This document shows positions 7,570 through 62,353 of a DNA stretch of 64,000 bases, piece after piece. The notes under the pieces are model-generated. The model made no database searches and was not told the origin of the DNA. It worked only from the letters and a program-made list of their open reading frames with translations. The stretch lies in contig CANRSN010000001.1 in NCBI GenBank assembly GCA_947642455.1, forward strand, positions 1 to 64,000. Direction: 5' to 3'. A program made the position numbers and the translations under genes. The DNA is from an uncultured Clostridiaceae bacterium (GTDB lineage: Bacteria > Bacillota > Clostridia > TANB77 > CAG-508). Position 1 is the first letter of the stretch. Every line of letters begins with the position of its first letter.

Positions 7570-7784
7570 AAAAAGAGTTCAATTTGTTACAATTGATAGA
7601 TATTAATTATCTATATAGGCAATATAATATTTATTTTCTGGAGTTTTGCTTAAGGGAAGTTCCCTCAGCGGACATGACCCAGAGCTACCCATAAAGCCAG
7701 TAAAAAATTTCGATAAAATAAATATTATATTACTTATTAGCTTCTAATTTCAAATTATGAATTGAAAGAAATTGTACTTTTTTG
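7570..7784 (+). repeat. Family-1 core-bearing palindromic repeat, copy A
   Basis: Left arm AAAAAGAGTTCAATTTG through GGCAATATAATATTTATTTT; core 7639-7714 with GTTTTGC, GGGAAGTTCCC, GACATGACCCAGAGC and AAGCCAGTAAAAAA; right arm AATAAATATTATATT through AAATTGTACTTTTTT. It fills most of the 417-base gap between the SipW cluster and the CNNM gene. I see no gene in that gap. Confidence 0.9.
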
Positions 7785-7872
7785 CTTTTAAATTTTTATT
7801 TTTCAACAATCTTTTTCCTAGTATATAAACAAAAAGAAGCATTCTCACTGCTTGCTATTTTTGCTATTTGTT

Positions 7873-8379
7873 TTAGATTTTTTGAATAGAATGTATTTTT
7901 ATTTCTATATTATCCTTTATATTTTCTAAGTTTGAAGAGTTATATATTATATTTAATCTATATTTATGTACTTCTTTATTTTCTTTTGAAATATTTATTA
8001 ATTTTGTTTTTTTACTTTCTAATTCTATCTTTTCATTTCCATTATACAATTCAAATAAAATTGTATTATTATCTGATATTATTTCTATATAGTATTGCAT
8101 TTTTACTTCATTTATATTATCATTTTCGTCATAATTTCTTACTTCAAATTCATATAATGTTTGTGGAGCAGTTGAAGTAATTATAAAACTTTCTTCTCCT
8201 CTTAATTCTATTACTGGTTTGGCAATATTCCCAAATATTTTGCCATTTACTACTGTTATATATTTAGCAAAACTAAATGATACTATAAATGTTGTAAATA
8301 AGATTACTAAAAATATTATTACTATTAAAAAGTCTTTACTCTTTTTTCTTTTATTTATTTGTATAATTTTTTCTTTCAT
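7873..8379 (-). CDS. Small TasA-like secreted protein of the SipW operon
   Basis: This 168-residue protein has a basic N-terminus and one hydrophobic segment (residues 17-37, DFLIVIIFLVILFTTFIVSF), then AKYITVVNGKIFGNIAKP. The same spaced pattern, (S/A)KYIT-x-V-x-GK-x(4)-IA, occurs after the membrane segment of the TasA-like protein three genes upstream, so the two look like members of one exported family. The remainder is predicted beta-rich with many acidic and lysine residues. No sorting signal or enzyme motif is visible. It is last in a four-gene operon, 26 bases after sipW. The TasA/camelysin relation is inferred from the shared N-terminal pattern and context. Confidence 0.65.
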   Translation of the reverse strand: MKEKIIQINKRKKSKDFLIVIIFLVILFTTFIVSFSFAKYITVVNGKIFGNIAKPVIELRGEESFIITSTAPQTLYEFEVRNYDENDNINEVKMQYYIEIISDNNTILFELYNGNEKIELESKKTKLINISKENKEVHKYRLNIIYNSSNLENIKDNIEIKIHSIQKI

Positions 8380-8405
8380 ATTTATTATATTCCTTCCTTA
8401 CTTCT

Positions 8406-8843
8406 TTAACAAAATATTAACACTATGATTAATAAAATAATAATTATTATTGGACTAAATTTCATTAAATAATTCATAAATTTAGAATGATGTATTACTT
8501 TTCCTTCTATGCTTTCTTTTGATACTTTTTCTTTATCTTTTATATTATTATTGTCTCCTTTTGTTATATAATCTTCTCCTTCTTTTTCTACAATTCTATG
8601 TGTTACTAAATATAAATTTTCTACATTGTAAGTTATGATGTCTCCTATTTCATATGTAGCTTGTCCTTTTATTACTACTGCCTCCCCTATTTGTATTTCT
8701 GGCTCCATACTACCTGTTGAAATTGTTAATATGCTAATATCAAATATCTTAAAAAGAGGGGATTTACTATTTAGCTTAATATAAAACATTACTATTATTA
8801 CTATAATTGTAATTATTGCAAATACAACTTTCTTCTTGTTCAC
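8406..8843 (-). CDS. sipW: SipW-type signal peptidase I
   Basis: This 145-residue membrane signal peptidase belongs to the ER/SipW subgroup, which uses a Ser-His rather than a Ser-Lys pair and in Bacillus processes TasA and TapA. A membrane segment (7-21) is followed by STGSMEPEIQIGE with the catalytic Ser45, then YLVTHRIV with His82, and YITKGDNNNIKD, the conserved Asp region. A second membrane helix lies at the C-terminus (131-144). The start is GTG with a strong GGAGGG upstream. It sits between two genes for TasA-like exported proteins, which are its likely substrates. The family assignment is firm; the substrates are inferred from position. Confidence 0.92.
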   Translation of the reverse strand: MNKKKVVFAIITIIVIIVMFYIKLNSKSPLFKIFDISILTISTGSMEPEIQIGEAVVIKGQATYEIGDIITYNVENLYLVTHRIVEKEGEDYITKGDNNNIKDKEKVSKESIEGKVIHHSKFMNYLMKFSPIIIIILLIIVLIFC

Positions 8844-8888
8844 AAAATCCCTCCTTTTTAACCTTTCTAACTTATATTACTATTGTTA

Positions 8889-9491
8889 TTAATTTTCTAT
8901 TCTTTCTGGTAATTCCTGTGTTCCTGTAACAACTATATCGAAACTATGTTGAGATAATGTACGACCATCTACTGTATCTTGCTCATTAGCCTCTTCAATG
9001 GTTTCGTTAGGATTAGCACTTTCATATCTCCAACTCCAATAAAGTTTTATTGTTCTAGTTCTCTCTTCATCATTTGCATGTATAACACCTGTTAAATATG
9101 GCTCTAATTCTTTTATATCTGAAACATAAATGTCTCCATAACCATATTCCAAATTTTTAGGCTTGTCTTTTATATTTTCAAAGTTTATTGCATATTCTAC
9201 TCCTGTCTCACATTCTGTTGCATCTATTACTATATCAAAGTCTCCCTTTACTCCTGGTGCTAATTTGTTATCTTTTATTGTTTCTGGTGTAAATGTATCT
9301 GCTAAGTTAATAGTTCCCATTGTTGAACTTTGATTGTTTACTTTAAAATTCCATCTTGCTATGTCTATTACTCCTTTTCCACGTACTTGTGTTATGTATT
9401 TAGAATATGTATAACCTCCTATTAAAAATATTGCTAACATTAGCATCAGTAAAACAATGGCTATTACTAGCTTTTTCTTGTTTTTCTTCAT
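8889..9491 (-). CDS. TasA/camelysin-like secreted protein
   Basis: This 200-residue protein has a lysine-rich N-terminus, a hydrophobic signal segment (8-25) and YSKYITQVRGKGVIDIARWNF, resembling the region after the SipW cleavage site in TasA/CalY-family proteins. Motifs typical of those fibre-forming proteins follow: LAPGVKGDFDIVIDATECETGVEYAINF and a late KLYWSWRYE strand. The family builds extracellular biofilm fibres, which is the likely role here. It lies between sortase (24 bases upstream) and sipW (45 bases downstream). No LPxTG-like motif is present at its C-terminus (GTQELPERIEN), so it is not an obvious sortase substrate. Confidence 0.75.
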   Translation of the reverse strand: MKKNKKKLVIAIVLLMLMLAIFLIGGYTYSKYITQVRGKGVIDIARWNFKVNNQSSTMGTINLADTFTPETIKDNKLAPGVKGDFDIVIDATECETGVEYAINFENIKDKPKNLEYGYGDIYVSDIKELEPYLTGVIHANDEERTRTIKLYWSWRYESANPNETIEEANEQDTVDGRTLSQHSFDIVVTGTQELPERIEN

Positions 9492-9515
9492 TATAAATCA
9501 CATTCCTTTCTCTAT

Positions 9516-10317: not shown

Positions 10318-10395
10318 TTCACAGCTAAATTTCTATTTAGTCCATATATAATTTTATAAACCATGAATTGTAACAACTTAATTACAATTCATAGT
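10318..10395. repeat. Core-less family-1 palindrome
   Basis: TTCACAGCTAAATTTCTATTT, then ATATATAATTTTATAAACCA and TGAATTGTAAC, match the outer arms of copy H (52110-52287) joined directly without the central core. With the family-2 remnant to its right, it accounts for much of the 515-base gap 10095-10609. No gene is visible there. Confidence 0.65.
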
Positions 10396-14097: not shown

Positions 14098-14270
14098 TCT
14101 CTACCAGGAAAGTATAACAAATTGTTATACTTTCCTAGTAGAGAAAAGCTTCGCCCAACGTTCCACACAAAATTGCTAAAGCAATTTTGGCGGTCGAACA
14201 AAGACGAGGCATGAAAAGTAATCTAAAATGTCTAAATATTTTAATCATGCCTCTTTTGTTCTATATTAGG
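14098..14270 (-). repeat. Family-2 three-hairpin repeat, reverse orientation
   Basis: Read on the minus strand: hairpin 1 opening GAACAAAAGAGGCATGATT and closing TCATGCCTCGTCTTTGTTC, hairpin 2 CCAAAATTGCTTTAGCAATTTTG, linker GTGGAACGTTGGGCGAAGC and hairpin 3 AGGAAAGTATAACAA.../...TTATACTTTCCT. Hairpin 1 and the linker match 43385-43510 almost exactly, whereas hairpin 3 differs. Confidence 0.8.
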
Positions 14271-14299
14271 AAAGCATAATAATCTATAAGTGCTTTTTA

Positions 14300-14343
14300 G
14301 TCTGTCCCTTTTGGGACATTTTTGTCCCAATTTGCTCCGTCCC
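14300..14343 (-). repeat. Family-3 GGGACGGAG repeat arm
   Basis: On the minus strand it reads GGGACGGAGCAAATTGGGAC, then AAAAATGTCCCAAAAGGGAC and AGAC. It matches both arms at 32107-32324 and abuts the adhE stop codon. Similar GGGACGG... repeats in Clostridia are associated with REP/IS200-type elements; that link is inferred. Confidence 0.75.
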
Positions 14344-14347
14344 AAAA

Positions 14348-16951
14348 TTACCAATTTCCATAATAACTATCTAATAAAATTTGTTTTAATTCTGAAACTA
14401 GTGGTAAGCGTGGATTTGCTGTTGTACATTGGTCTTCAAATGCTCTATCTGCTAGCATATCCACCTTAGCTAAAAATTCTTGTTCATTAATTCCTACATC
14501 TTTAAAACACTTTTCAATTCCCAAATCTTCATTTAACTTTTTAATTTCTTCTATTAAAGAATTTACACCTTCTTCATCTGTATAAGCTGCAAAATTCATT
14601 TTTCTTGATATATCGGCATATTTTTTGTCTGCAATAAAATATTCGTATTTTGGGAATGAAACAAATTTTGTAGGTTTGCTAGCATTATAGCGAATTACAT
14701 ATGGTAATAAAATTGCATTCAATCTACCATGTGCCATATGAAATTCTGCACCTAATTTGTGTGCTAGAGAATGATTTATTCCTAAGAAAGCATTTGTAAA
14801 AGCCATTCCTGCAATTGTACTTGCATTGTGCATTTTTTCCCTTGCATGAGCATCATTACCATTGTTATATGCCTGCCTTAAATTTTTAAATACCAATTCT
14901 ATAGCCTTTTCTGCTAAACCATCTGTATAGTCTGATGCCATATTTGAAACATATGCCTCTATTGCATGTGTTAATACATCCATTCCTGTATCTGCTGTAA
15001 TTCTTTTTGGCAAGCTCATTACTAAGTCTGGATCTACTATTGCTACATCTGGTGTTAACTCATAGTCTGCTAATGGATATTTTTTATTGTTTGTTTTATC
15101 TGTAATAACTGCAAATGATGTTACTTCTGAACCTGTTCCTGAAGTTGTTGGTATTGCTACCATTTTTGATTTTATACCTAGTTTTGGAAATTTATAGGTA
15201 CGTTTTCTTATATCCATAAATTTCAACTTTAATCCTTCTACATCACTGTCTGGGTATTCATAAAATAACCACATTCCTTTTGCTGCATCTATTGGGCTTC
15301 CTCCTCCTAATGCAATTATTACATCAGGCTTAAATTCATTCATCATTGCTACACCTCTTTTTATTGTATCAAATGATGGATCTGACTCTACTTCTGAAAA
15401 TATTTCAGAATGTACATATGTGTTTCTTTTTCTTAAATGATATAATATTTTATCTACATATCCGAATTTAACCATTGATTCGTCTGTAACTATAAATGCC
15501 CTTGTTATATCTGGCATTTTTTCTAAATATGCTATTGAACCTGCTTCAAAATATATTTTATCTGGAACTTTAAACCATTGCATATTAACTCTCCTTTTCG
15601 CAACTTTTTTAATATTTATTAAGTTTACTGATGATACATTTGCTGTTGTTGAATTTCCTCCAAAAGTACCACAACCTAAAGTAAGTGATGGCATATTTGT
15701 GTTGTATATATCACCTATTGCTCCATGTGTTGAAGGAGAATTTACAATTATTCTTCCTACTTTTACCTTTTCAGAAAATTTCAAAATTGTTTCTTTATCT
15801 TCTGAATGAATTACTGCTGAATGACCTAGACCTCCAAATTCAATTAGTTTTTCTGCTAATTCTATTCCTTCGTCTGCATTTTCTACTATATAGTATGCTA
15901 AAACTGGACTCAGTTTTTCTTTAGAAAATGGATATTCTATACCAACTCCATTTTCATGTAATACTAATACTTTTGTATCTTCTGGTACTTCAATTCCTGC
16001 ACCTTTTGCAATATTGTATGGACTTTTTCCAACTATATCTGCATTTAAAGCACAACCCTTTTCTTCTATAAACATACTATTACGCAATTGTTTTGTTTGT
16101 TCATCACTTAAAAAGTAACATCCTGCTTCTTTCATTAATTTTTCAAATTCTTCATGTATTTCTTTGTCTACTATGACTGATTGCTCTGATGCACATATCA
16201 TTCCATTGTCAAATGATTTTGATAATACTAAATCATTTACTGATGTTCTTAATTTTGCTGTTTTGTCTATATAACATGGTACATTTCCTGGACCTACTCC
16301 TAATGCTGGCTTTCCGCATGAATATGCAGCCTTTACCATCCCTGTTCCTCCTGTAGCTAATATTAAGTTTACATCTGGGTGATTCATTAACATATTTGTT
16401 GCTAAAACAGATGGCTCTTCTATCCATAAAATACAATTTTCTGGGGCACCCGCTTTTATTGCTGCATCTCTTACTATTGTTGCTGCCTCTACACTACACT
16501 TTTGAGCTGATGGGTGAAAACCAAATACTATTACATTTCTTGTTTTAGCTGAAATTATTGATTTGAACATTGTTGTAGATGTTGGATTTGTTACTGGTGT
16601 TACTCCTGCTATTATTCCTACTGGTTCTGCTATTTCTATATAGCCTTCTTCTCCGTTTTCATTGATTTTTCCAACTGTTTTGTCGTATTTTATACTATGA
16701 TAAATGTACTCTGTTGCAAACATGTTTTTTGTTATTTTATCTTCGTAAATTCCTCTTCCTGTCTCCTCTACTGCTGATTTTGCAAGTTCCATGTGATGCT
16801 CTAAACCTGCCATTGCCATTTGTTTTACTATATTATTTACTTGCTCCTGATCTAGTTTCAAATACTCCTTTGATGCTATTTTTGCTTTTTCTATTAGTTC
16901 ATCTATCATGGCTTTTACTTTTTGTTTCTCTTCCTCACTATACTCTGCCAT
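14348..16951 (-). CDS. adhE: Bifunctional acetaldehyde-CoA/alcohol dehydrogenase AdhE
   Basis: This two-domain fermentative enzyme reduces acetyl-CoA to acetaldehyde and then to ethanol with two NADH. The N-terminal aldehyde dehydrogenase domain shows [51 protein letters not shown] and the catalytic Cys in [17 protein letters not shown]. The C-terminal iron-dependent alcohol dehydrogenase shows [49 protein letters not shown] and the metal-binding [20 protein letters not shown]. The ATG at 16951 ([10 protein letters not shown]) is chosen because GGGAGGAG lies just before it; an ATG eight codons earlier would put this site inside the gene. That gives 867 residues, near the family size. A TTGACA/TATAAT promoter precedes it. 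Confidence 0.97.
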
Positions 16952-17506: not shown

Positions 17507-17628
17507 ATGCTTCTCCTCCTATAATATTAGATTTTATTTGTAAATCTAAATAAGAACTTAATACATTCATATTATAACATACATATTATCTATTGTCTAT
17601 AACTTATGTATACTTGTTATAAAAATTT

Positions 17629-17810
17629 TAACAATTCAGAGGTCTTATACTATCTGCTGTGTTATCAATATTTATTTTTAGAAGTTTTGCACAGGGAAGT
17701 TTCCTCAGTAGAAACGGCTCTAGGCAATTTGTGAAGCCAGTAAGAAATTTCTAAAAATAAATATTGATAACACAGCAGAATATATATTTTACTTCCTTAT
17801 GAATTGTTAC
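17629..17810 (+). repeat. Family-1 core-bearing palindromic repeat, copy B
   Basis: Left arm AACAATTCAGAGG...CTGCTGTGTTATC, core with AAGTTTTGCACAGGGAAG, GTTTCCTCAGTAGAAAC and GTGAAGCCAGTAAGAAA, right arm GATAACACAGCAG...GAATTGTTAC. The inner GTTTC/GAAAC pairing differs in sequence from other copies but keeps the stem. The gap 17507-17901 holds nothing else apart from a weak -10-like TATAAT near 17868 ahead of leuS. No T-box leader is visible. Confidence 0.9.
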
Positions 17811-17922
17811 AAAAAAAATATTGAAACTTAAATTTTTTGCTTTATTTTCTAAGAAATATGTAGTATAATAGCATATAAGTTACTTGCAATAGCAAGACAA
17901 AATGAAAGAAAGGATGATTTTA

Positions 17923-20925: not shown

Positions 20926-21016
20926 TGTGATTACCTCCTTAATATATAGAACAATTTATGTTACTTCTTTTATTATATCAAAACTTGCTTATTTTTTCAA
21001 TATTATTTGTATTTTT

Positions 21017-21137
21017 AGTTTCGTATTTTTTTAATAGCAAGTTTTAGGCTATATTTAATAAATTTACACAGAATATTAATATTTGTGTATAGTATAAATT
21101 GAAGCCTAAAACTTGCTATTAAAAAAATACCGAAACT
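21017..21137. repeat. Core-less family-1 palindrome
   Basis: Long arms (AGTTTCGTATTTTTTTAATA then GCAAGTTTTAGGCT; on the right AGCCTAAAACTTGCTATTAA then AAAAATACCGAAACT) meet at a centre CACAGAATATTAATATTTGTG. The outer arms resemble those of copy F (47264-47510), which carries the core at the matching AATATTAATATT centre. The palindrome fills the 20926-21178 gap with nothing else visible. Confidence 0.75.
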
Positions 21138-21178
21138 TAAATATTTGTATCAAATTTTAAAATAAAGCAAAAAAATGT

Positions 21179-28859: not shown

Positions 28860-28875
28860 CACAATTTTTTAGTTT

Positions 28876-29098
28876 CAGCAAAAAAGAGTACAATGTGTTA
28901 CAATTCATAGATTGAAATTAGAAGCCAATAGGCAATATAATATTTATTTTGCGAAGTTTTTTACTGGCTTCGCCAATCGCCTAGGGTCACTTCTACTGTG
29001 GGAGCTTCCCTGCGCAAAACTTCTAAAAATAAATATTATATTGCCTAGATAGATAATTAATATCTATGAATTGTAACAAATTGTATTCTTTTTTGCTG
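28876..29098 (-). repeat. Family-1 core-bearing palindromic repeat, copy C (reverse)
   Basis: Outer arms CAGCAAAAAAGAGTACAA and TTGTATTCTTTTTTGCTG are near-perfect. The core lies on the minus strand: AAGTTTTGCGCAGGGAAGC, AGTAGAAGTGACCCTAGGC, GATTGGCGAAGCCAGTAAAA. The whole element is inverted relative to copy A and shares its arm type. Confidence 0.9.
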
Positions 29099-29195
29099 TT
29101 TTAGTTTTTGTATTTTTCAAATCATAATTTACATAATTTACTTTTTTTTCAAAAAAGTGTATAATATACTTAAATAATCTTTAGGAGGTACTTAT

Positions 29196-31038: not shown

Positions 31039-32139
31039 ATGAATAATACAAATATTGAAAATGATTTAAAAAAAGATGGTATTACAATAGTAAAACCTGT
31101 AGATACACTAACGATAACTTTAATAGCCAAATTTGTTGCTGAGAAACTAACAACAACATTTATATTTTATGGGCTAAAGCAAAATGACTTATTTGTAAGA
31201 ATAGCTAGAGTGCCTATGTATATTGCCAAAATTCCTGATGGAATGTCAGAAGCAAATTACTTATACAAAAACTCTTCTATCTATTTTAAAGAAGGTCTTT
31301 CTATAGAAGAAATGCAAGTATATGCTGTTCATGAATTTATACACTATTATCAAGAACTAAAAGACAAAAAAAATGTCTTATATAGACTAGGTTTATGCGA
31401 CTTCACAAATTTCAAAGTTTATGGAATGGCATTAAATGAAGCTGCTGTTCAACTAATTTCATCTAAAGCCCTAAAAAGTAAAGTAGATATTGTCAAATAT
31501 TATGGTATACTAATGCCTACAATTAGTCCAAATTGCTATCCTATTATCTGTAATCTAATTACTCAAATGGCTTACATTACAGGTGAACAGGTTTTATTCG
31601 ATAGTACTTTATATAGTAATGATAACTTTAAAAATAGTTTTATAAATTTGTGTGGAGAAAAAACTTTCTACATAGTACAAAATAACTTTGATAAAATCCT
31701 TAATGTAGAAGAAAAAATAATAAAAATTAACTATATACTTCAAGAAAATAATAATCTTTCCGAAAAGTTAATTTCTAAATATTCTCACAAAATATTAAAA
31801 TATAAAAACATTATACAAAATACATTTATAACTACTCAAAATTTAATTTTAACTTCATATTTTAATACTAAGTTTAACAATGTATATTCTGCTACAGAAG
31901 TTGAAGAATATAGAAAAAAATTATATAACTACAAAGATATTATTGGCACAACTGATGACTATTCTTACTTTAATAACTATTATATTAACATGATGACTAA
32001 ACTTTCTGAGAAACTTGACAATATTAATTCTAATATATACTTACAACCTTACAAAGTTAATATTTTTAGTACAGTTGTTAATAAATTATTAAAACTTGTA
32101 AATAATGGGACGGAGCAAATTGGGACAAAAATGTCCTAA
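31039..32139 (+). CDS. Putative zinc-metallopeptidase-like protein with repeat-derived C-terminus
   Basis: This 366-residue protein has a gluzincin-style motif: AVHEFIHYYQELKD near residue 94 (HExxH) and, about 40 residues later, GMALNEAAVQLISSK, where Glu could be the third zinc ligand. No signal peptide is visible, so it appears cytosolic. The remainder is helical and unrecognised. Peptidase activity is therefore a hypothesis from the motif alone. The last ten residues (GTEQIGTKMS) and the stop are encoded by the family-3 repeat beginning at 32107, so the original C-terminus has been replaced or extended. AAGGAG precedes the ATG. Confidence 0.7.
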   Translation: MNNTNIENDLKKDGITIVKPVDTLTITLIAKFVAEKLTTTFIFYGLKQNDLFVRIARVPMYIAKIPDGMSEANYLYKNSSIYFKEGLSIEEMQVYAVHEFIHYYQELKDKKNVLYRLGLCDFTNFKVYGMALNEAAVQLISSKALKSKVDIVKYYGILMPTISPNCYPIICNLITQMAYITGEQVLFDSTLYSNDNFKNSFINLCGEKTFYIVQNNFDKILNVEEKIIKINYILQENNNLSEKLISKYSHKILKYKNIIQNTFITTQNLILTSYFNTKFNNVYSATEVEEYRKKLYNYKDIIGTTDDYSYFNNYYINMMTKLSEKLDNINSNIYLQPYKVNIFSTVVNKLLKLVNNGTEQIGTKMS

Positions 32140-32324
32140 AAGGGACAGATCAATGTAACAATAGATAAGAACAACGATGGCAGATAAAAATATTTTGATA
32201 TTTTAGGTTACTTTTAATGCCATCGTTGTTCTACGCAAAAAAAACAGACCAATGTAATATTTTTTATTAATATTACATTGGTCTGTCCCTTTTAGGACAT
32301 TTTTGTCCCGATTTGCTCCGTCCC
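32107..32324. repeat. Composite family-3 repeat with inverted GGGACGGAG arms
   Basis: The left arm (32107-32160) reads GGGACGGAGCAAATTGGGAC, AAAAATGTCCTAAAAGGGAC, AGATCAATGTAA. The right arm (32245-32324) has the same sequence inverted and its own palindrome CAGACCAATGTAATA.../...TATTACATTGGTCTG. Between them (32165-32235) lies a family-2 hairpin-1-like stem, GAACAACGATGGCA...TGCCATCGTTGTTC. Two convergent genes both terminate inside it. Confidence 0.85.
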
Positions 32325-33574: not shown

Positions 33575-33666
33575 TCTGACTTTCTCCTTTTATTTAAAAT
33601 TCCTCTATATTTTATTATTTTTTTCTCTTAGTTGTCAATATATTTGACCTTTTTTGGTATTTTTTT

Positions 33667-33851
33667 AGTAACTATTCAGAGGTAAGCAAAATTTATATTC
33701 TGCTGTGTTATTAATATTTATTTTTAGAAGTTTTGCGCAGGGAAGCTCCTAAAGTGGACGCGACCCAGAGCTACCCACGAAGCCAGTAAGAAACTTCTAA
33801 AAATAAATATTAATAACACAGCATATAGTTTAAGGCATCTGAATAGTTACT
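33667..33851 (+). repeat. Family-1 core-bearing palindromic repeat, copy D
   Basis: Arms AGTAACTATTCAGAGG...CTGCTGTGTTATTAATATTT and AAATATTAATAACACAGC...CATCTGAATAGTTACT flank a core with AAGTTTTGCGCAGGGAAGC, GTGGACGCGACCCAGAGC and ACGAAGCCAGTAAGAAAC. The gap 33575-33912 contains this repeat and a terminator, nothing else. Confidence 0.9.
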
Positions 33852-33870
33852 TTTTTTAATAGCATATAAA

Positions 33871-34675: not shown

Positions 34676-34766
34676 TAATATCGAAAAAAAAGAGTACAAT
34701 TTGTTTCAATTCATAGATATTAATTATCTATGAATTAAAACAAATTGTACTCTTTTCTCTGATATT
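34676..34766. repeat. Core-less family-1 palindrome
   Basis: AAAAAAAAGAGTACAATTTG then TTTCAATTCATAGATATTAA runs into its own reverse complement (TTATCTATGAATTAAAACAA then ATTGTACTCTTTT). These are the outer arms of copies A and C joined without the core. It can act as a terminator for the DUF4097 gene ending at 34771. Confidence 0.8.
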
Positions 34767-38919: not shown

Positions 38920-41900
38920 CTAGTAATGGCAAATTGATTTATAATTACAATATTTACATGGCATAGTTTTATTTTTCGTATTATAATATGGTTCTATTTT
39001 TATGCTTCCTGACAATATTTCCTCAGATATTTGTTTAAGTAACTTTCGAGTATACTCTTGCAGATGTTCAAATTGTTCTTTTGTAAGTACTTTTGATCTT
39101 TTTTCGCTTATTTTTCCATCTTTACTTATATATGCTGGAACCATTGTTGAATAACCTGCTTCCAGTTTTTTATCCATCATTTTTATAACTTTTACATCTG
39201 CTAAAATTAAGCCTTTCATTTTAAACTGTTTTTTTAGTTTTTCTTCAATCTCTTCATCTGTTAATTGTTTTTTAGATTTTATTATTGGATCTATTAAGTT
39301 AAAATATAGTACACCTGCTGGTAATACATCTTCTATTTTGCAAGTTGCATCTAAATATGTTAAAAGTTGAAGTTGCAAACCTGCTACTACTTGATCTAAA
39401 TCTATGTCTTTTATAGAAGATTTATAATCTATTATTCTTATATATTTTTTATTATTATCTCCTATTTCTGATTTACTATTTTCTGCTTGATTATAATTAT
39501 CACTTTTAGTCTCCTCTGGCATTTGTGCTATATCTACTCTATCTATTTTTCCTGTAATTTCAACCATTCTACCATTTTCTAGTTTTAGCTTAATTGGCTT
39601 ATAAGTTTTTCCTTCTTTAAATTCAAGTTCATTTCCAAAGACTTCAAAGTCACTATTTTTTAGTGTTTCTAATATATATTTCATTGACTTTGTTATAACC
39701 TTTTTTAGCCTCATTGCTAATAATTTATATTTATCTGTACTTGTGAAAATATAATTTTTATCTAAATTTAACTTTTCGTTTACTATATGTTCTATAATTT
39801 TTTCAATTTGTTCTTCTGATATTTCTTTAATATTTATACCATTTTCCCTAGTTCTATTAAAAAATTCGTCTATAGTTTCATGCATAAAAGTCCCTGTATC
39901 TATTGCTTCTACTTTAAAATTATTTTTCTCTGATAATTTTAAGCCATATGTTAAGTGATATGAAAAAGGGCAAGCTCTATACTTTTCTAGTCTTGATACA
40001 CTTGTATTTAACTTTTTTCCATATAATTTATCTATATTTTCTTGTGATATAACCTCTGGAACATTTTCATAATTTATAGCTTTTAATGCCATTTCTAATT
40101 TGTCTTTATATTCCTCATTTGTAATATAATAATTATATACGTCAATCCATTTTAAGTCAATATTTTCGCCATCTCTAAATTCCCTCAAATTATTTATTAA
40201 TTCTTCTAGTGTCGATTTTTCCGTTATTATTTCTGAGTTTGTATATATTATGTCACTTTCTTCTTTTAATTTAGGAAAAATATTTTTTATCTTTTTAATT
40301 AACATTGAAGGTCTTAATGTTGCACCATCTAAACTAGCAGATGAATATGATAAATATAATTTTTCTTCTGCTGTAGTAAATGCTTTATATATAGCAAAAT
40401 TGTCTTCATATAATTGTTCTAATGTACCTTTTGCAAGCTCTATTCCCTTTTCTTTTAGATTTTTTCTATCATTATCATTTAAAAAGCCTTCATCTTTATG
40501 TATTGATGGGAAAATGCCATCATTTAGCCCAATTATGAATATTGCCTTTACTTTATGACTTCTAGTCCTATCTACATCCCCTACTGTAACTTGATCTTGT
40601 GCTGCTGGTATTTTTCCAAGTCCACTACTTCCAAGTCCCGTTTTTAATATTTCTATATATTTTTCAAATGTTGTTTTATCTTGACCAAATATTAAAATTA
40701 ATTCATCAAATAAGTCTATTATGACTTTCCATGCAATTTCATATTCATTTGCTATTTCTACATCTTTTTCTATCATCTCATTTTTTTTGTTTTGCAAAAT
40801 TTGCTCTATATTATTATCTACTAAAAATTTATATAATTCTTTTGTAATTTGTTCTACTGTTTTTGTTCCTGACAAATTTTGCTTTAAATTGATAAGCGGT
40901 TCTACTATTTGTTTTCTAATGTTTTCTAATTTTTCTTGTAACTCTTTTTCCTCTTTAAAATTCCACTCATTTTGCCACTTTTTTCCTTTAATTCCCCATT
41001 TTATGCAATAATTTTCTAATAAAAATATATCATCTTTGTCTATATTTAATATACCTGATTTTATATAGTTGAACATTGATTCATATGACCAATTTTTTGT
41101 AAAAATGTCAAGTATAGAAATTATATATTTTACCAATATATTTTTACTAAGCTCTTTTTTCTCATCTATAAACACTGGTATATCATACTTAGAAAAAATT
41201 GCCTTACACAAATTTGAATATGTTTCTAATTCTTTTGTAATTACTGCAATATCTCTAAACCTGTATCCTTCATCTCTTACTAATTTAACAGCCTGTTTTG
41301 CTACATTTTCAACTTCTGAATAATTGTTACTTGCCAAAAATAATGATACATTTTGGACTTCTTTTTGGTATGGCTCTGCTGTTACTTCATAAATGTTTTT
41401 TTCTAAATGTTCAAGCTCTAAACTTTTAAATCTATATTGATTTTTTAAAAATACTGTTTTTTCAAGTTCTATATTTTCTGTTTTTGCCATATATAAAAGT
41501 TTACTAGCTGTTTTTTTATTAGAATAAAATATGTCTGTATCTGGATTTGTTTGCATGTCTAAGTCATCTGTACATACTGTTACAGATATTTGTTTTGCTT
41601 TTCTTGCTAGTGCTTTTATTATATTGTATTCTTGTGGTGTAAAGCCTGCAAATTCATCTATGTATATTATTGTATTTTTAAACATATCTGTTTTTTCCAA
41701 TTGCTGAGCCAAAATATCTAATTTATCATTTTCATCAATATATTTGTTTTCTATGTTTTGCTCAAATGATTCATATATTGCATATATGTCTTCTAATTTT
41801 GCTTTCAAATATTTATCTTCTGTACTTTCTATTATCTCCTTTAGTTTTTCTATAGATATGTTATGCTTTTTTAATTCTGTAATTTGTGTTAAAACCATGT

Positions 41901-42243
41901 CTATATTTTTATCTGATTTACCTAAAAATTTTAATTCCTTTTTCTTGTTTAAAAGTATATTATATACTAACATTGCTTTTCCAGATGCACTTATATTTGT
42001 TTTTGTGCTTCCATATACTTCATTTGCAACTCTATATGCCATACGATCAAATGTTAATACTTCTGCAACCATAATTGCTCCAGTATTTATTTTTTCTAAA
42101 AGTTTTTTTTCTGCTGTATATGAAAATTGTTCTGGAGTTATTATGTATATTTTATTATTTTTGTCTAACTTTTCTACTATTTCATCAAAGCAAAAGTTGC
42201 TTTTTCCACTTCCTGATTTTCCACAAATTAATCTAAAACTCAT
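38920..42243 (-). CDS. addB: Helicase-exonuclease AddAB subunit AddB
   Basis: This subunit of the recombination nuclease processes DNA double-strand ends. The N-terminal P-loop (LICGKSGSGKSNFCFDEI) opens the inactive or partly active helicase half. The body holds helicase-like remnants (FIIGLNDGIFPSIHKDEGF). The C-terminal RecB-like nuclease includes RACPFSYHLTYGLKLSE, RIIDYKSSIKDIDLDQVVAG (Asp and Lys of the active site) and MPCKYCNYKSIC. These Cys residues suit the AddB iron-sulfur cluster. The frame extends 50 codons further, but the earlier part reads through the dispersed repeat, and AGAAGGG precedes the ATG at 42243. The 1107 residues are normal. addA, usually directly downstream, is absent here. 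Confidence 0.94.
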   Translation of the reverse strand: MSFRLICGKSGSGKSNFCFDEIVEKLDKNNKIYIITPEQFSYTAEKKLLEKINTGAIMVAEVLTFDRMAYRVANEVYGSTKTNISASGKAMLVYNILLNKKKELKFLGKSDKNIDMVLTQITELKKHNISIEKLKEIIESTEDKYLKAKLEDIYAIYESFEQNIENKYIDENDKLDILAQQLEKTDMFKNTIIYIDEFAGFTPQEYNIIKALARKAKQISVTVCTDDLDMQTNPDTDIFYSNKKTASKLLYMAKTENIELEKTVFLKNQYRFKSLELEHLEKNIYEVTAEPYQKEVQNVSLFLASNNYSEVENVAKQAVKLVRDEGYRFRDIAVITKELETYSNLCKAIFSKYDIPVFIDEKKELSKNILVKYIISILDIFTKNWSYESMFNYIKSGILNIDKDDIFLLENYCIKWGIKGKKWQNEWNFKEEKELQEKLENIRKQIVEPLINLKQNLSGTKTVEQITKELYKFLVDNNIEQILQNKKNEMIEKDVEIANEYEIAWKVIIDLFDELILIFGQDKTTFEKYIEILKTGLGSSGLGKIPAAQDQVTVGDVDRTRSHKVKAIFIIGLNDGIFPSIHKDEGFLNDNDRKNLKEKGIELAKGTLEQLYEDNFAIYKAFTTAEEKLYLSYSSASLDGATLRPSMLIKKIKNIFPKLKEESDIIYTNSEIITEKSTLEELINNLREFRDGENIDLKWIDVYNYYITNEEYKDKLEMALKAINYENVPEVISQENIDKLYGKKLNTSVSRLEKYRACPFSYHLTYGLKLSEKNNFKVEAIDTGTFMHETIDEFFNRTRENGINIKEISEEQIEKIIEHIVNEKLNLDKNYIFTSTDKYKLLAMRLKKVITKSMKYILETLKNSDFEVFGNELEFKEGKTYKPIKLKLENGRMVEITGKIDRVDIAQMPEETKSDNYNQAENSKSEIGDNNKKYIRIIDYKSSIKDIDLDQVVAGLQLQLLTYLDATCKIEDVLPAGVLYFNLIDPIIKSKKQLTDEEIEEKLKKQFKMKGLILADVKVIKMMDKKLEAGYSTMVPAYISKDGKISEKRSKVLTKEQFEHLQEYTRKLLKQISEEILSGSIKIEPYYNTKNKTMPCKYCNYKSICHY

Positions 42244-42298
42244 ATCTAATATATTCCCTTCTCTATAATAAAAATTCTGCCTAAATATGCACGTGTGA

Positions 42299-42463
42299 CT
42301 ATTCAAAAGTAAATAAAATTTATAATCTGCTGTATTATTAATATTTATTTTTATAAGTTTTGCATATGAGATTTCTACAATAGAAACACCCATATGCTAC
42401 CTAAGTAGCCAGTAAAAATAAATATCAATAACACAGCAGATAATTTAATACCTATGAATAGTT
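42299..42463 (+). repeat. Family-1 palindromic repeat, copy E (divergent core)
   Basis: The arms (CTATTCAAAAG...CTGCTGTATTATTAATATTT and AAATATCAATAACACAGCAG...CTATGAATAG) match copies B and D, but the core is diverged: GCATATG pairs with CATATGC, TTTCTA with TAGAAA and CTAC with GTAG, then GCCAGTAAAA. Stems are kept while sequence changes. It fills most of the addB upstream region. Confidence 0.85.
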
Positions 42464-42464
42464 T

Positions 42465-43361
42465 TTATTGGCTTTTTGAAACCACCTCTGTATTATCTCT
42501 TTTCCAATAAAATAAATATTGTTGTGCTAGCCCAGCTATATTTCCAAACTTTTCATATGCTAATTTTTCTATTTGCTTTTTATTTACTTTTGTTTCATCT
42601 TCATTTTTTATGTATAATTCATTCATTACTCTTCTAACCCATACATCTATCGGGAATGCTTCAAACCTTTTTAATGTTGAAAATAGTAATATGCAATCTG
42701 CAACTTTTGGACCTACCCCAGAAAGTGTAAGTAATTTCTCTCTTACTATTGTAAAATCTTTTTCTTTATGCAACTCTTTTAAGTCTACCTTTTTATTTAT
42801 TACCATTTGTGTTGTTTCATATACTCTTACATCTCTAAAACCTAAGCCTAATTTTCTTAAGTCTTCAACTTTTGCTTTAGAAAGCTCCTCTGGTGTTGGA
42901 AATGTATAATATTGCTTTCCATTGTATTGTATTTTTTGACCATATTGTGCAGATATTCTTTCTATTATTCCCTTTATTCTTGGTATGTTGTTATTTGCTG
43001 ATATTATAAATGATATTATGGTTTCCCACAAATCTTGATTTAATATTCTTATTCCTTTTCCATATTGTATACTTGTTTTCATGTTTTCATCTATTTTTGA
43101 TAGTCTTTCTTTAATTTCTTCATAGTTTCTGTTTAAGTCAAAATATTCTGTACATACCTTTTTTATGTTGTCTTGACATATTCCTTTAAATATTATTTGC
43201 TTTTCATTTGGTGTTTCTGATACATTTATAACATTTTCTCCAAAAACACCTATATAACTTCCATCTATTTGTTTATTCCATCTAAAACATTGACCACAGT
43301 CAAATATGTCTTTCAATTCAAATGAGTTTCCTTTTTCTATTTTATATATCTGTTCTTCCAT
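42465..43361 (-). CDS. 8-oxoguanine DNA glycosylase (Ogg1-like)
   Basis: This 298-residue DNA glycosylase/AP lyase excises oxidised guanine. An OGG N-terminal domain is present (FELKDIFDCGQCFRWNKQID). The helix-hairpin-helix GPD region reads LTLSGVGPKVADCILLFSTL and continues FEAFPIDVWVRRVMNELY; Lys of GPKVADC and Asp of PIDVW are in the expected catalytic places. SFIISANNNIPRIKGIIERI is also family-typical. The family often has about 300 residues in Clostridia, matching here. AAGGAG precedes the ATG. It is upstream of addB on the same strand, separated by the repeat. Confidence 0.92.
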   Translation of the reverse strand: MEEQIYKIEKGNSFELKDIFDCGQCFRWNKQIDGSYIGVFGENVINVSETPNEKQIIFKGICQDNIKKVCTEYFDLNRNYEEIKERLSKIDENMKTSIQYGKGIRILNQDLWETIISFIISANNNIPRIKGIIERISAQYGQKIQYNGKQYYTFPTPEELSKAKVEDLRKLGLGFRDVRVYETTQMVINKKVDLKELHKEKDFTIVREKLLTLSGVGPKVADCILLFSTLKRFEAFPIDVWVRRVMNELYIKNEDETKVNKKQIEKLAYEKFGNIAGLAQQYLFYWKRDNTEVVSKSQ

Positions 43362-43384: not shown

Positions 43385-43683
43385 ATGCTTGGAGAACAAA
43401 AGAGGCATGATTAAAGTATTTAGACCTTTTAGATTACTTTTCATGCCTCGTCTTTGTTCGCCCGCAAAAATTACTTTAGCAATTTTGTGTGGAACGTTTA
43501 GCGAAGCTTTTCTATTATAGAACAAACCGGAAAGCCTTTAAATTAGCATAACTTTAACTTTTCTCTTTGGCTTTCCGTAAATTTGTTCTGTGCCAAATTT
43601 TTTTAAAATTTGTGCACAATGTTTGCGAAGTTTTTTATACAATAGGAAAAGTCAGTATGACTTTCCTATTGTATGAAAAGAAT
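43385..43683 (+). repeat. Two tandem family-2 three-hairpin units
   Basis: Unit 1: hairpin 1 GAACAAAAGAGGCATGATT...TCATGCCTCGTCTTTGTTC, hairpin 2 CAAAAATTACTTTAGCAATTTTG-like, linker GTGGAACGTTTAGCGAAGC. Unit 2: hairpin 1 GAACAAACCGGAAAGCC...GGCTTTCCGTAAATTTGTTC, hairpin 2 CAAATT...AATTTG, linker CACAATGTTTGCGAAGTTTT, hairpin 3 ATACAATAGGAAAAGTC...GACTTTCCTATTGTAT. The gap 43362-43696 has no gene. Confidence 0.85.
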
Positions 43684-43696
43684 TTCAAAGAAAATT

Positions 43697-47263: not shown

Positions 47264-47510
47264 TCAGTATTTTTTAATATCAAGTTTTAGAATAGGTTTA
47301 TTAAAAATTTTCACGAATATTAATATTTATTTTTGAAAAGTTCTGCGCAGGGAAGCTCCCAGAGTGGAAGTGACCCAGAGCGATTGGCGAAGCCAGTAAA
47401 GAACTTTGAAAAAATAAATATTAATATTCGTGTATGCAACAAATTGTACTCTTTTTGACTGTCGTGTACGCTATTTTTTACACTAAAACTTGATATTAAA
47501 AATGCCGAAA
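47264..47510 (+). repeat. Family-1 core-bearing palindromic repeat, copy F
   Basis: Outer arms TTAATATCAAGTTTTAG and CTAAAACTTGATATTAA resemble the core-less palindrome at 21017. The inner arms are CACGAATATTAATATTTATT and AAATAAATATTAATATTCGTG-like, and the core has TGCGCAGGGAAGCTCCCAGA, GTGGAAGTGACCCAGAGC and GGCGAAGCCAGTAAAGAAC. It fills the 349-base gap 47174-47522. Confidence 0.9.
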
Positions 47511-49544: not shown

Positions 49545-49731
49545 ACTATTTATATATTTTATATAGCTTTTTGGCTTTATTTGCTTTCTATACCTATTAC
49601 TATTTATATTTTTTTATAGCTTTTTGGCTTTATTCGCTTTCTATACCTATTACTATTTATATTTTTTTATAGCTTTTTGGCTTTATTCGCTTTCTATACC
49701 TATTACTATTTTATATTTTTTGTATAGCTTT
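49545..49731. repeat. 53-base tandem repeat derived from the rnc 3' end
   Basis: Three full units and a partial fourth of TATTTATATTTTTTTATAGC / TTTTTGGCTTTATTCGCTTT / CTATACCTATTAC. Units 49601-49653 and 49654-49706 are identical in length and nearly in sequence. The partial fourth runs into rnc itself (TATTTTATATTTTTTGTATA then GCTTTTCTTGCAGC), so each unit looks like a copy of the gene end plus spacer. Confidence 0.9.
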
Positions 49732-50880: not shown

Positions 50881-50934
50881 AGTAACTATTAAGAGCTCTT
50901 ATACTATCTGCTGTGTTATTAATATTTATTTTCC
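50881..50934. repeat. Truncated half copy (G) of the family-1 repeat
   Basis: AGTAACTATTAAGAGCTCTTATACTATCTG-like sequence and CTGCTGTGTTATTAATATTT match the left arm of copies B and D up to the start of the core, where plsX coding sequence takes over. The plsX stop codon (50926-50928) is inside the repeat arm. Confidence 0.75.
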
Positions 50935-51945: not shown

Positions 51946-52109
51946 TCTTGTTTCTCCCCTTTAGGAATATAAATTTTAATATAATATATATTTTTATTTC
52001 AACATTTTATAACTTATATTTTACAAAGTCAATTAAATCTTTGTAATTTTATTATTTATTTTTATCTTTTACAATACTATTGACCAATTAGTCTATGCTA
52101 TTTTTTGCT

Positions 52110-52287
52110 TACATTCACAGCCCAATTTCTATTTAGGCAATATAATATTTATTTTAACGAAGTTTTGCGCAGGGAAGCTCCCAGAGTGGACATGACCCAG
52201 AGCGATTGGCGAAGCCAGTAAAAAACTTCGTTAAAATAAATATTATATTGCCTAAAATATATAATTTTATAAACTGTGAATTGTAAC
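52110..52287 (+). repeat. Family-1 core-bearing palindromic repeat, copy H
   Basis: Arms ATTCACAGCCCAATTTC...GGCAATATAATATTTATTTT and AAAATAAATATTATATTGCC...CTGTGAATTG flank a core with AACGAAGTTTTGCGCAGGG, AAGCTCCCAGAGTGGACATG, ACCCAGAGCGATTGGCGAAG and CCAGTAAAAAACTTCGTT. The outer P1 stem AACGAAGTTTT/AAAACTTCGTT is perfect. It occupies the 457-base gap 51946-52402, with nothing else visible. Confidence 0.92.
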
Positions 52288-52402
52288 ATTTTTTGTGTTA
52301 CTATAATAATATTACAAATTTATTACAAATTCTATTATTTATTGATAAGATTAAAACATTAATATATAATTATTTTAATATTATTGAAAGGATTTATTTA
52401 AT

Positions 52403-52753
52403 ATGTTAAAAAATAATAAAGGCATAACTTTAATTTCTTTATCTATAACTATTATTGTATTGTTAATATTATTAAGTGTTACTTTTGAATATACACTTGG
52501 TGAAAATAGTATTCTTGATTCATCTACAGAGTATAAAAATTCTGCTGAAAAAAGTATAGTAAAAGATGAGATTGAAAATATTTTATTAAAATATAAAATG
52601 GCAAATATGGATACTGGAATTTCTATTATAGATTATTTTACTAATTTAAGTGATATTACTAGTATTACAGATAATGGTAATAATACTTACACTGTAGTTA
52701 AAGATGGAGTTAGTGTTATTGTTAGAGATTTTAAAATTATAGATGTAAAGTAA
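52403..52753 (+). CDS. Prepilin-like small secreted/membrane protein
   Basis: This 116-residue protein has a class III-type prepilin leader: a short basic start (MLKNNKG) and a cleavage-site-like G|ITLISLSITIIVLLILLSVT, followed by a single long hydrophobic helix. The usual Glu5 is Ser here, as in many Clostridia type II secretion/pilin-like proteins. The soluble part is Asn/Asp/Thr-rich (TDNGNNTYTVVKDGVSVIVR). No prepilin peptidase or ATPase is in the window. It is a single gene with GAAAGGA before the ATG, and it ends beside a family-2 repeat remnant that can serve as its terminator. Confidence 0.75.
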   Translation: MLKNNKGITLISLSITIIVLLILLSVTFEYTLGENSILDSSTEYKNSAEKSIVKDEIENILLKYKMANMDTGISIIDYFTNLSDITSITDNGNNTYTVVKDGVSVIVRDFKIIDVK

Positions 52754-52832
52754 TCTTGCGTGGAATGTTTGCTGAACTTTTATATGACTTAGAAAGTATA
52801 ACCATTTGTTATACTTTCTAAGTCATATAAAA
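52744..52832 (+). repeat. Truncated family-2 repeat (linker and hairpin 3)
   Basis: Linker GTGGAATGTTTGCTGAAC then a perfect long hairpin ATATGACTTAGAAAGTATAA .../... TTATACTTTCTAAGTCATAT and an A run. It starts inside the last bases of the pilin-like gene region and provides a terminator-like structure. Confidence 0.75.
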
Positions 52833-59789: not shown

Positions 59790-59795
59790 CTTTAG

Positions 59796-59967: not shown

Positions 59968-60924
59968 ATGGCATATAATTTAAAAGAAATCATTGCAAAC
60001 AAACCTGTAAGGTTTACATCTGGCCATAGAATGTGTGCTGGTTGTGGTGCTCCACCAGTTGCTAGAATGATTATGAGAGCATTAAAAGAAGAAGACCACG
60101 CAGTTGTTTCAAATGCAACTGGTTGTATGGAAGTATCTACATTTATTTATCCATACACAGCTTGGACTGATTCATACATTCATACTGCTTTCGAATGTGC
60201 TAGTGCCACATGTTCTGGTGCTGAAGCAGCATACAAAGCTATGAAAAGACAAGGAAAATTACCTAAGGATGAACATACAAAATTTATTACTTTTGGTGGA
60301 GATGGTGGAACATATGATATCGGTATTCAAAGTTTATCTGGTGCAATGGAAAGAGGTCATGATATGACTTATGTTTGCTATGATAATGGAGCTTACATGA
60401 ATACAGGCATTCAACGTTCATCTGCAACACCTCATTTTGCAGATACTACAACTTCTCCTGCTGGAAAAGTTGTACCTGGAAAAATGCAACCAAGAAAAGA
60501 TTTAACTGAAATAATGGCTTCACATCATTTACCATATGTTGCTCAAACAATAGCTGTTAATAATTTTAAAGATTTATATGAAAAAGCTGAAAAGGCAATA
60601 TATACTGAAGGTCCTACTTTCTTAAATGTTTTAGCACCTTGTCCTAGAGGTTGGGGATATCCTACAGATATGTTAATGCAAATTAATAAATTAGCTGTAG
60701 ATACATGTTACTGGCCTTTATATGAAGTTGTTGATGGTAAATATAAAATAACATATAAACCAGCTAAAAAACTTCCTGTTGAAGAATTTTTAAAACCTCA
60801 AAGACGTTTTGCTCACATGTTCAAACCAGGAAATGAATGGATGATTGAAGAATTCCAAAAAGAAGTTGATAAAAGATGGCAAGAACTTTTGAATCTAGAA
60901 GAAATTACTAATAAAGAAGAATAA
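59968..60924 (+). CDS. porB: Pyruvate:ferredoxin oxidoreductase beta subunit
   Basis: This 318-residue subunit binds thiamine pyrophosphate and a [4Fe-4S] cluster. Cluster Cys residues lie in GHRMCAGCGAPPVARMI and SNATGCMEV, with a later CPRGWGYP. The TPP/Mg site is FITFGGDGGTYDIGIQSLSG with CYDNGAYMNTGIQRSSATPH. It completes the porGDAB operon and makes acetyl-CoA, CO2 and reduced ferredoxin from pyruvate. A GAAAGGAGA site precedes the ATG. The hairpin before it and the terminator after it mark its own transcript segment. Confidence 0.95.
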   Translation: MAYNLKEIIANKPVRFTSGHRMCAGCGAPPVARMIMRALKEEDHAVVSNATGCMEVSTFIYPYTAWTDSYIHTAFECASATCSGAEAAYKAMKRQGKLPKDEHTKFITFGGDGGTYDIGIQSLSGAMERGHDMTYVCYDNGAYMNTGIQRSSATPHFADTTTSPAGKVVPGKMQPRKDLTEIMASHHLPYVAQTIAVNNFKDLYEKAEKAIYTEGPTFLNVLAPCPRGWGYPTDMLMQINKLAVDTCYWPLYEVVDGKYKITYKPAKKLPVEEFLKPQRRFAHMFKPGNEWMIEEFQKEVDKRWQELLNLEEITNKEE

Positions 60925-60948
60925 ATTTAATAAATGACTATGTCTGGC

Positions 60949-60987
60949 AAAATCCGGATTTCTGGGATTCCCCAAAGTCCGGATTTT
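60949..60987 (+). terminator. Hairpin terminator after porB
   Basis: AAAATCCGGA and TCCGGATTTT are a perfect 10-base stem with inner GGG/CCCC pairing, 25 bases past the porB stop. Confidence 0.75.
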
Positions 60988-61011
60988 CAGATGTTTTAGA
61001 TAGGGGGTAAT

Positions 61012-62079
61012 ATGAATACTAATAATTTTTCAAACGAAAATGAAAATGAGAATGAAATAAAAAAAACTGATAAAAAACTTACTATATTTAATTTTATTCT
61101 TATTGTTGTTATTTTTATAGGTTTAACTGTTTATATGTTTTGTATTGATGGTATAGAAAATATTATATATGTTTTAAAAAATGTCAACTATGTTTGGGTT
61201 TTAGCTGGTTTAGGATGTCTATTCTTACTATGGCTATGTGATTCTTTAACTTTACATATCCCACTAAAAAAGTTATATCCTAAGCAAAAGTTTACTAATT
61301 CTATAAAAGTAACTATGATAGGACAATTATTTAATAATATAACTCCTTTTTCTTCTGGAGGACAGCCTATGCAAGCATATGAGCTTACCAAAACTGGAAA
61401 AAGAGCTAGCGATTCTATGTCTATTCTTGCAATGAAATTTATAATTACACAAATTGCTTTAGTCTCTTTTACTTTAGTTGTTGTTATATTTCAATTAGAC
61501 TTTTTCAAAGAGTTATTTAAGGATTTTTTGTGGGTTGCTATTTTAGGAATATTAGCAAATATTTTATTAATTGTTGTGGTAATTTTAGCAGGAATTAATA
61601 AGAAGTTTATAACTTGGATTACTACTCCTGTTATTAAATTATTGGCTAAAATTAAAATAATAAAAAAACCAGAAAATACGATTGAAAAACTAGATTCTAG
61701 TATAACAAACTTTAATCAACAATTTAAACTTATGAATTCTCAAAAATTAGTTGTATTACAAATTTTTGTAATATCATGTATTCAAAGTTTAGCATATTAT
61801 TCAATAACTTATATGGTTTATAGAGCTTTTGGAAATTCTGGTATTGATTTTTGGCAAATTGTACCTGTTCAAGCATTTTTACTTTTATTTATGACTATTA
61901 TTCCTACTCCTGGAGCTGGAATTGGAGCTGAAGGCGGATTTTTAATTTTATTTAACTCTATTTTTAAAGAAGGTACTATTAATTTATCTATTCTTTTCTG
62001 GAGAATTTATACATTCTATTTACCAATTATTGTTGGCTCACTATTTTTAATACCTTCAAGAAAGAGCAAAGCAGAATAA
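61012..62079 (+). CDS. UPF0104/LPG-synthase-type flippase-like membrane protein
   Basis: This 355-residue membrane protein of the YbhN/UPF0104 (lysylphosphatidylglycerol synthetase transmembrane region) type has about eight hydrophobic segments. Examples are FNFILIVVIFIGLTVYMFCI, WVLAGLGCLFLLWLCDSLTL and ILANILLIVVVILAGINKKF. Family motifs are TMIGQLFNNITPFSSGGQPM (the polar loop shared by the family) and IIPTPGAGIGAEGGFLILFN. The N-terminal tail is charged. The family includes lipid flippase-like proteins lacking the catalytic domain; substrate unknown. AGGGGGT precedes the ATG and the por terminator separates it from porB. Confidence 0.88.
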   Translation: MNTNNFSNENENENEIKKTDKKLTIFNFILIVVIFIGLTVYMFCIDGIENIIYVLKNVNYVWVLAGLGCLFLLWLCDSLTLHIPLKKLYPKQKFTNSIKVTMIGQLFNNITPFSSGGQPMQAYELTKTGKRASDSMSILAMKFIITQIALVSFTLVVVIFQLDFFKELFKDFLWVAILGILANILLIVVVILAGINKKFITWITTPVIKLLAKIKIIKKPENTIEKLDSSITNFNQQFKLMNSQKLVVLQIFVISCIQSLAYYSITYMVYRAFGNSGIDFWQIVPVQAFLLLFMTIIPTPGAGIGAEGGFLILFNSIFKEGTINLSILFWRIYTFYLPIIVGSLFLIPSRKSKAE

Positions 62080-62108
62080 ACATCACAAATCAAATAGATA
62101 AGACAATC

Positions 62109-62353
62109 TTTTTTGTTGTTTGCAAATGCTCAATCCTTTTGGATTAACTATTTAGAGATATTATAATATATATTCTGTGTTATTAATATTTATTTTTATA
62201 AGTTTTGCGCAGGGAAGCTCCCAAAGTGGACATGACCCAGAGCGATTGGCGTAGCCAGTAAAAAACTTATAAAAATAAATATTAATAACACAGAAGAATA
62301 TAAATTAAATAGTAGTTAATCCAAAAGGATTGAGCATTTGCAAACAACAAAAA
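62109..62353 (+). repeat. Family-1 core-bearing palindromic repeat, copy I
   Basis: Outer arms TTTTTGTTGTTTGCAAATGC, TCAATCCTTTTGGATTAACT and AGTTAATCCAAAAGGATTGA, GCATTTGCAAACAACAAAAA are exact complements. The inner arms are CTGTGTTATTAATATTTATT and AATAAATATTAATAACACAG, and the core has ATAAGTTTTGCGCAGGGAAG, CTCCCAAAGTGGACATGACC, CAGAGCGATTGGCGTAGCCA. It lies between convergent genes; the 62080-62394 gap holds this and a terminator. Confidence 0.92.

Follow-up and report, generated by a model that had tools for sequence, protein, structure and literature searches.

The window analysed here, a 64,000-nucleotide stretch (27.9% G+C) of contig CANRSN010000001.1 from an uncultured Clostridiaceae bacterium, contains eight dispersed copies of a repeat in which long inverted arms surround a short core. 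The copies are DNA transposons of the miniature inverted-repeat transposable element (MITE) type, about 180–260 bp long in the window and composed, from the outside inward, of terminal repeats, AT-rich palindromic arms and the core. We propose that they are probably two-part non-autonomous elements, consisting of a mobile chassis and an independently maintained, structurally constrained core. Direct reading and a repeat search located all eight loci, in agreement with the original prediction, and seven of them match a covariance model of the core (R1, whose training set included some window copies) at E ≤ 0.01. The remaining copy, copy 5, is degenerate: it retains AAGTTTTGC and AGCCAGTAA, the middle of its core is replaced, and it is not reported by R1. 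Two other features first ascribed to the repeat were mistaken. Orientation is not preserved, with a minus-strand core in copy 3 and 74 forward and 44 reverse matches to the core pattern genome-wide, and the arms are not one sequence in common but fall into about five arm/end classes, sorted by eye and motif.

The host assembly (G000; 2.22 Mb in 85 contigs, listed contamination 5.63%) contains many further copies, as had been anticipated. The core pattern AGGGAAGYTYCYNNAGTRGA, with one mismatch allowed, matches 118 times and its reversed control not at all, while the exact string GAAGCCAGTAA matches 94 times against 1 for the control. R1, for which 14 core sequences from four genomes were used, matches 131 times at E ≤ 0.1, although the lowest-ranking few are weak, and 126 copies (99 sources) were extracted at E ≤ 0.01. 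Because R1 was trained on some G000 copies, the evidence lies in the further copies found and not in their scores. Among 94 relatives of the host (26 of the same genus and 68 more) the core pattern is absent apart from one match in G053, which lies within an apparent UDP-glucose dehydrogenase gene and was rejected as chance. In a 391-genome sample of the class, with strict filters and 13 candidates scored per genome, matches were confined to G000. A scan of a named genome collection found seven stretches in three Clostridia metagenome-assembled genomes, RGIG6776 (sheep rumen), ABMPRH_57_0 and Lapin-020 bin29, and the genomes themselves (G475, G476 and G477) have 6, 12 and 13 matches. Under strict filters, 13 of 292 sampled genomes of the G477 family, these three included, match at E ≤ 1e-4, with 1 to 17 matches each. 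Viral contigs gave 0, 2, 0 and 0 matches for four patterns, the last being the larger G736 core described below; the two matches are chance, as judged by the model and their context. BLAST searches of plasmids and phages returned short, weak matches or none, and limited searches of the open-licence literature yielded no paper describing these elements.

The MITE assignment rests on terminal inverted repeats, target duplications of fixed length and a short, non-coding and mostly intergenic sequence, and in this respect the original prediction was right in kind. End motifs were recognized on both sides of 90 of the 126 extracted copies (46 class B/C, 29 class A/D and 15 class E), and the other 36 were excluded. 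For class B/C, with CAGCAAAAAAGAGTACAATTTGTT; CAGCAAAAAAGAG... ends, a 9-bp duplication is perfect in 14 of 46 copies and has at most one mismatch in 20 of 46, compared with frequencies of 0.000 and 0.004 in shuffled flank pairs. For class A/D, with GTWACWATTCA ends, the duplication is 8 bp long (perfect in 6 of 29, at most one mismatch in 7 of 29; shuffled 0.001 and 0.006). The 9-bp duplication of class E is weak (1 of 15 and 3 of 15; shuffled 0.000 and 0.005). In these shuffles each boundary stays in place and only the matching of left with right flanks is disrupted. Class B/C copies peak precisely at a length of 9 bp and class A/D copies at 8 bp, with no comparable peak at other lengths. 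In the window, copies 3, 4 and 7 are bordered by such direct repeats. For copies whose palindromic flanks are unique, we considered and set aside the possibility that they had inserted into palindromes already present; at the copy 8 site, the gap between flanking matches is ~206–220 bp shorter in three genomes of the same genus (G019, G008 and G015), and a fourth relative, G023, yielded no right flank.

Conservation runs from the inside out. Over 2531 cross-genome pairs, identity is 0.73 in the core (model-aligned), 0.66 in the innermost 20 nt of the left arm and 0.46 in the next 20 nt, against 0.53 for a shuffled arm. Within a copy, the left and right innermost arms match at 0.85 without gaps, and gapped alignment gives a median arm length of 71 aligned nt per side in G000. 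Arm mismatches comprise 183 A.C and 128 G.T in G000 and 23 of each in the other three genomes, duplicates retained. The arms therefore have no G.U (wobble) excess, unlike a conserved RNA stem, and instead fit DNA template switching. Arms that are self-complementary yet divergent, together with cores flipped relative to class A ends (L040, L044 and L047), also fit this process. The parts of PMC8794818 and PMC8604942 that deal with template-switch evolution of inverted repeats describe a DNA process that homogenizes arms and inverts the spacer; so described, the model accounts for the arms and flipped cores but leaves the conserved core sequence and its tandem GA motif unexplained.

The core strand can fold, in the model, as a three-way junction formed by the arms and two hairpins, P2 and P3. 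P2 pairs YGC with GCR and then GGG with CCC. P3 takes the form UGGC-loop-GCCA (TGGC-NNN-GCCA in DNA) in 51 of 82 aligned cores and UG-(G/A)A-stem-GA-CA (TG(G/A)A...GACA) in 23 of 82, with stems as diverse as GC(GAA)GC, GCAATC(TTT)GATTGC and GGGTCC...GAGCCC. Template switching alone should not create tandem GA, because this motif lacks self-complementarity. The variation of P3 in length and sequence, with its grammar and the non-self-complementary GA kept, is the main argument that the core is under structural constraint. An apparent compensatory change of TGG/CCA to TAG/CTA in the core was rejected when it failed on sequences of other genomes.

The same core is found on several chassis. Classes A to E have the innermost arm (AATATTTATTTT) and the core in common and differ in their ends. 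Some classes are interrelated, as classes A and B share TAGGCAATATAAT and class B/C ends hold a class A-like stretch further in, but the occurrence of 9-bp and 8-bp duplication ends around one core implies at least two chassis. Conversely, one chassis carries several cores. The end GTTACAATTCACAG (at most one mismatch) occurs 59 times in G736, a genome with one R1 match. Among 13 end-pair regions there, a larger core is present in five (L273–L275, L277 and L278), a third kind of core in four (L276 and L279–L281) and none in four (L282–L285); L286, also in G736, holds the core of the window copies. Six short G000 end pairs (62–69 nt) likewise have no core. Of these 19 end pairs, L284, L287 and L288 show 8-bp duplications and L273 a 9-bp duplication. 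Two members of the G000 genus, G001 and G014, have 33 and 21 occurrences of the pattern GTTACAATTCAYAG, and L313–L315 and L319 contain two further kinds of core; the nine pairs from this genus show 8-bp duplications in L313, L315, L322 and L323, and four more regions gave no pair. These other cores all go unmatched by R1. The larger one from G736 does align with the first core at CGCG, AATGGAG and CGACANCAAGG and follows the same P3 grammar, and on this likeness it is probably a distant relative. The remaining cores show no likeness to the first on inspection, without a formal test. In L218 (G000 C4:59400-64400), a different core (GTTTGAGCGATTAGCGAATTAC) with its own palindromic arms lies before 2559 and resembles the third G736 kind.

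In the mechanism that we propose, terminal inverted repeats and long AT-rich palindromic arms would constitute the chassis, and a transposase provided in trans would move it as DNA, leaving the 8-bp or 9-bp duplications of the respective ends; the enzyme is hypothetical and the duplications are observed. Several DDE families leave duplications of 8–9 bp. The core would form the tip of a hairpin created by arm pairing. Template switching during replication would keep the arms self-complementary and flip cores within the chassis, and cores may be lost at short direct repeats, as suggested by core-less junctions at such repeats in L206 and at 21012–21141. Conservation of the core while the arms drift and the ends are exchanged points to a module that is maintained independently under structural constraint.

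Several observations weigh against this reading. The element boundaries and duplication lengths were first spotted by eye on the same copies. No transposase was seen, by eye from open reading frame (ORF) starts, beside unpaired class B/C ends in a sample of 19 G000 regions (a twentieth, chosen for its Y1 gene, lacks a class B/C end) or in a sample of 20 G736 regions with such ends; the enzyme may lie elsewhere or have been lost. Within-copy pairing beyond the innermost 20 nt is 0.53 without gaps, the shuffled level, although gapped alignment follows the pairing further. The pair counts favour the fold (over 81 distinct sequences, 87.0% of cells are paired compared with 85.7 in shuffles, 5 pairs change on both sides compared with 1.9, and slid structures pair 26.5–46.1%), but the covariation figures are inflated because the rows are related and the alignments were fitted to the structure. 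P2 pairs 10–54 and 12–53 are unpaired in 47 and 35 of the 81, and a four-pair P3 is missing in 34 of 126 G000 cores, 29 of which have an altered 5′ side. The core alone is not unusually stable (mean fold z −1.07; complement −1.17), and the fold of 52100–52290 (z −10.1) is mostly due to the arms. The folded core of the original prediction stands in its variable yet pairing third hairpin, but not as a sequence that by itself folds much better than a shuffled one. Finally, pair 5–58 is U.G in 39 of 81 cells, for which RNA is equally suited.

A serious rival, though in our judgement an unlikely one, is that the core is only a spacer. In bacteria, long palindromes that lack a central spacer undergo cleavage or deletion (SbcCD), and any asymmetric insert would protect them, making unrelated cores interchangeable. 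The housing of different cores by one chassis and core loss at direct repeats agree with this explanation, as does the shortness of the core-less elements with these ends (45–104 nt; L282–L285 and L287–L292). A mere spacer, however, would not need to be similar across genomes where the outer arms are not, nor to keep the non-self-complementary GA/GA beside varying P3 stems in 23 of the 82 aligned rows.

That the core is a functional RNA, transcribed and acting in cis or trans as, for example, a terminator, regulator or mRNA stabilizer, strikes us as less probable again. Its GNRA-like and triloop hairpins, tandem GA and U.G in place of C-G in P2 are consistent with such a role, and many copies lie near gene starts or ends. 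Nearly all extracted G000 copies (125 of 126) lie outside any ORF of 90 aa or more, ORFs being called mechanically. Relative to both neighbouring genes, the cores of 120 G000 copies are antisense to both in 53 cases, sense to both in 30, flanked by divergent genes in 23 and by convergent ones in 14; for the 31 copies in G475–G477 the counts are 11 antisense, 7 sense, 2 divergent, 3 convergent and 8 undecided. This lack of sense-strand bias is evidence against an RNA that acts in cis and is read in the core sense, and the arms without G.U excess and the ordinary core fold energies of both strands add to the case against RNA. No Rfam family was matched: the window gave 0 matches at the gathering threshold, in line with the earlier expectation of no listed RNA family, and sub-threshold look-alikes were all that a permissive search returned for two individual copies and for eight loci bearing other cores. 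The one real Rfam match is a tRNA in the flanking DNA of L280.

An origin as IS200/IS605 or REP/RAYT relics moved by a Y1 transposase, part of which had been suggested earlier, is highly improbable: the hairpin shape and single Y1_Tnp (PF01797) matches over cut-off in G000 and in G476 favour it, but G475 and G477 have no such match despite their 6 and 13 copies, and Y1 transposition is not known to leave 8–9 bp duplications like those found here. The REP/REPIN and IS200/IS605-derived palindromes treated in the relevant parts of PMC3733652 and PMC6006769 are likewise interspersed hairpins, and the target duplications and the missing Y1 match in two of four carriers set the present elements apart from them.

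Returning to the structurally constrained module, we think that it most likely acts as DNA and not as RNA, in the form of a single-stranded hairpin or a cruciform tip, a choice that we hold about as readily as we doubt it. The absence of a wobble excess and of a sense orientation tilts the balance toward folded DNA, while the GAA, GTA and GNRA-like loops and the tandem GA are compatible with DNA and RNA alike; d(GCGAAGC) forms a DNA mini-hairpin of very high stability. More tentatively, and with doubt prevailing, the core may represent a structured nucleic-acid module of a new class. It would be a three-way junction whose strands are conserved (GCGAAUGGA and GACANCAAGG outside G000), would be recognized in trans as a folded single strand and would pass from one MITE chassis to another, with the result that bacterial DNA transposons of no relation to one another would repeatedly adopt the same tip.

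The ends of ordinary MITEs are conserved because the transposase reads them. It is unusual that ends are exchanged here around a conserved core and cores are exchanged within one chassis. The CORE-SINEs of animals (SINEs, short interspersed elements) contain a conserved central domain common to families with unrelated ends, and they resemble the present elements in this conserved centre; SINEs move through RNA, whereas these bacterial copies move as DNA with target duplications. If the structured-module reading is true, the elements would be a bacterial counterpart of CORE-SINEs. If something reads the core, that reader would be a new player in bacterial transposition or DNA hairpin handling; if it is only a spacer, the elements are a natural experiment on the survival of long palindromes in bacterial chromosomes. 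Both possibilities can be tested, since several species have different cores on the same chassis. As portrayed in parts of PMC10969869 and PMC2229807, QMITE2 of Coxiella and Correia/NEMIS are, like these elements, short, AT-rich, intergenic, non-coding and hairpin-forming, with terminal inverted repeats and direct repeats (7–9 bp in those families), and NEMIS occur with and without a 50-bp internal sequence. In contrast to what is described there, the centre is conserved here and the ends are exchanged, a single core occurring on chassis with 8-bp and with 9-bp duplications and a single chassis carrying different cores.

Table 1. Copies of the element, their flanking repeats and core-less relatives in the window
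Feature	Coordinates	Strand	Description
Copy 1	7566..7786	+	class B ends (AAAAAGAGTTCAATTTGTTACAATT...); core 7643-7707
Copy 2	17628..17812	+	class D; core 17684-17747
Copy 3	28876..29098	-	class B, inverted; core 28957-29020
Copy 3 target duplication	28867-28875 and 29099-29107		9 bp, TTTTAGTTT
Copy 4	33668..33850	+	class D; core 33730-33793; subfamily with non-pairing third hairpin
Copy 4 target duplication	33660-33667 and 33851-33858		8 bp, TTTTTTTA
Copy 5	42295..42467	+	class D, degenerate; CATATG...CATATG segment in place of core middle; right arm shortened
Copy 6	47278..47497	+	class E ends, class B-like stretch within right arm; core 47340-47403
Copy 7	52108..52287	+	class A; core 52162-52225; outside the 29 class A/D copies of the duplication count because its left end is altered
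Copy 7 direct repeat	52100-52107 and 52288-52295		8 bp, ATTTTTTG
Copy 8	62104..62359	+	class D inner arms and long outer palindrome; core 62202-62265
Class E palindrome without core	21012..21141	.	compared with core-bearing L018, junction at AATATTAATATTT direct repeat
Class B palindrome without core	34686..34756	.	
Class D element without core	50881..50932	+	left half only
Remnant without core	10360..10394	.	class A/B ends

In the window, an AddB-like ORF (38920–42393, minus strand) has its mechanical start, at 42393, within degenerate copy 5; as its Pfam match does not begin before residue 55, the gene probably starts downstream of that position. In G475 (L118) and G477 (L117, L120, L129, L131, L133 and L137), a core-bearing element lies near prepilin-like genes (N-terminal GITLVALIITIIVL), as judged by eye. 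Seven G476 copies (L119, L122, L125, L128, L130, L132 and L134) lie within a longer repeat near contig ends; by eye, most are then followed by a different XRE-like regulator gene, and L130 has a prepilin-like gene on its other side.

The window also contains other repeats. A second interspersed hairpin family occupies 4184–4359, 14135–14262, 43393–43689 and 52749–52818; its members are pairwise 76–93% alike, occur in both orientations and have palindromes separated by GTTTGCGAAGC or GTTTAGCGAAGC. Another palindromic repeat (GTCTGTCCCTTTTGGGACATTTTTGTCCC...) is located at 14297–14352 and 32106–32325 and also beside class C elements in L206 and L216. Three tandem copies with a 53-bp spacing, 89–97% alike, are present at 49557–49724.

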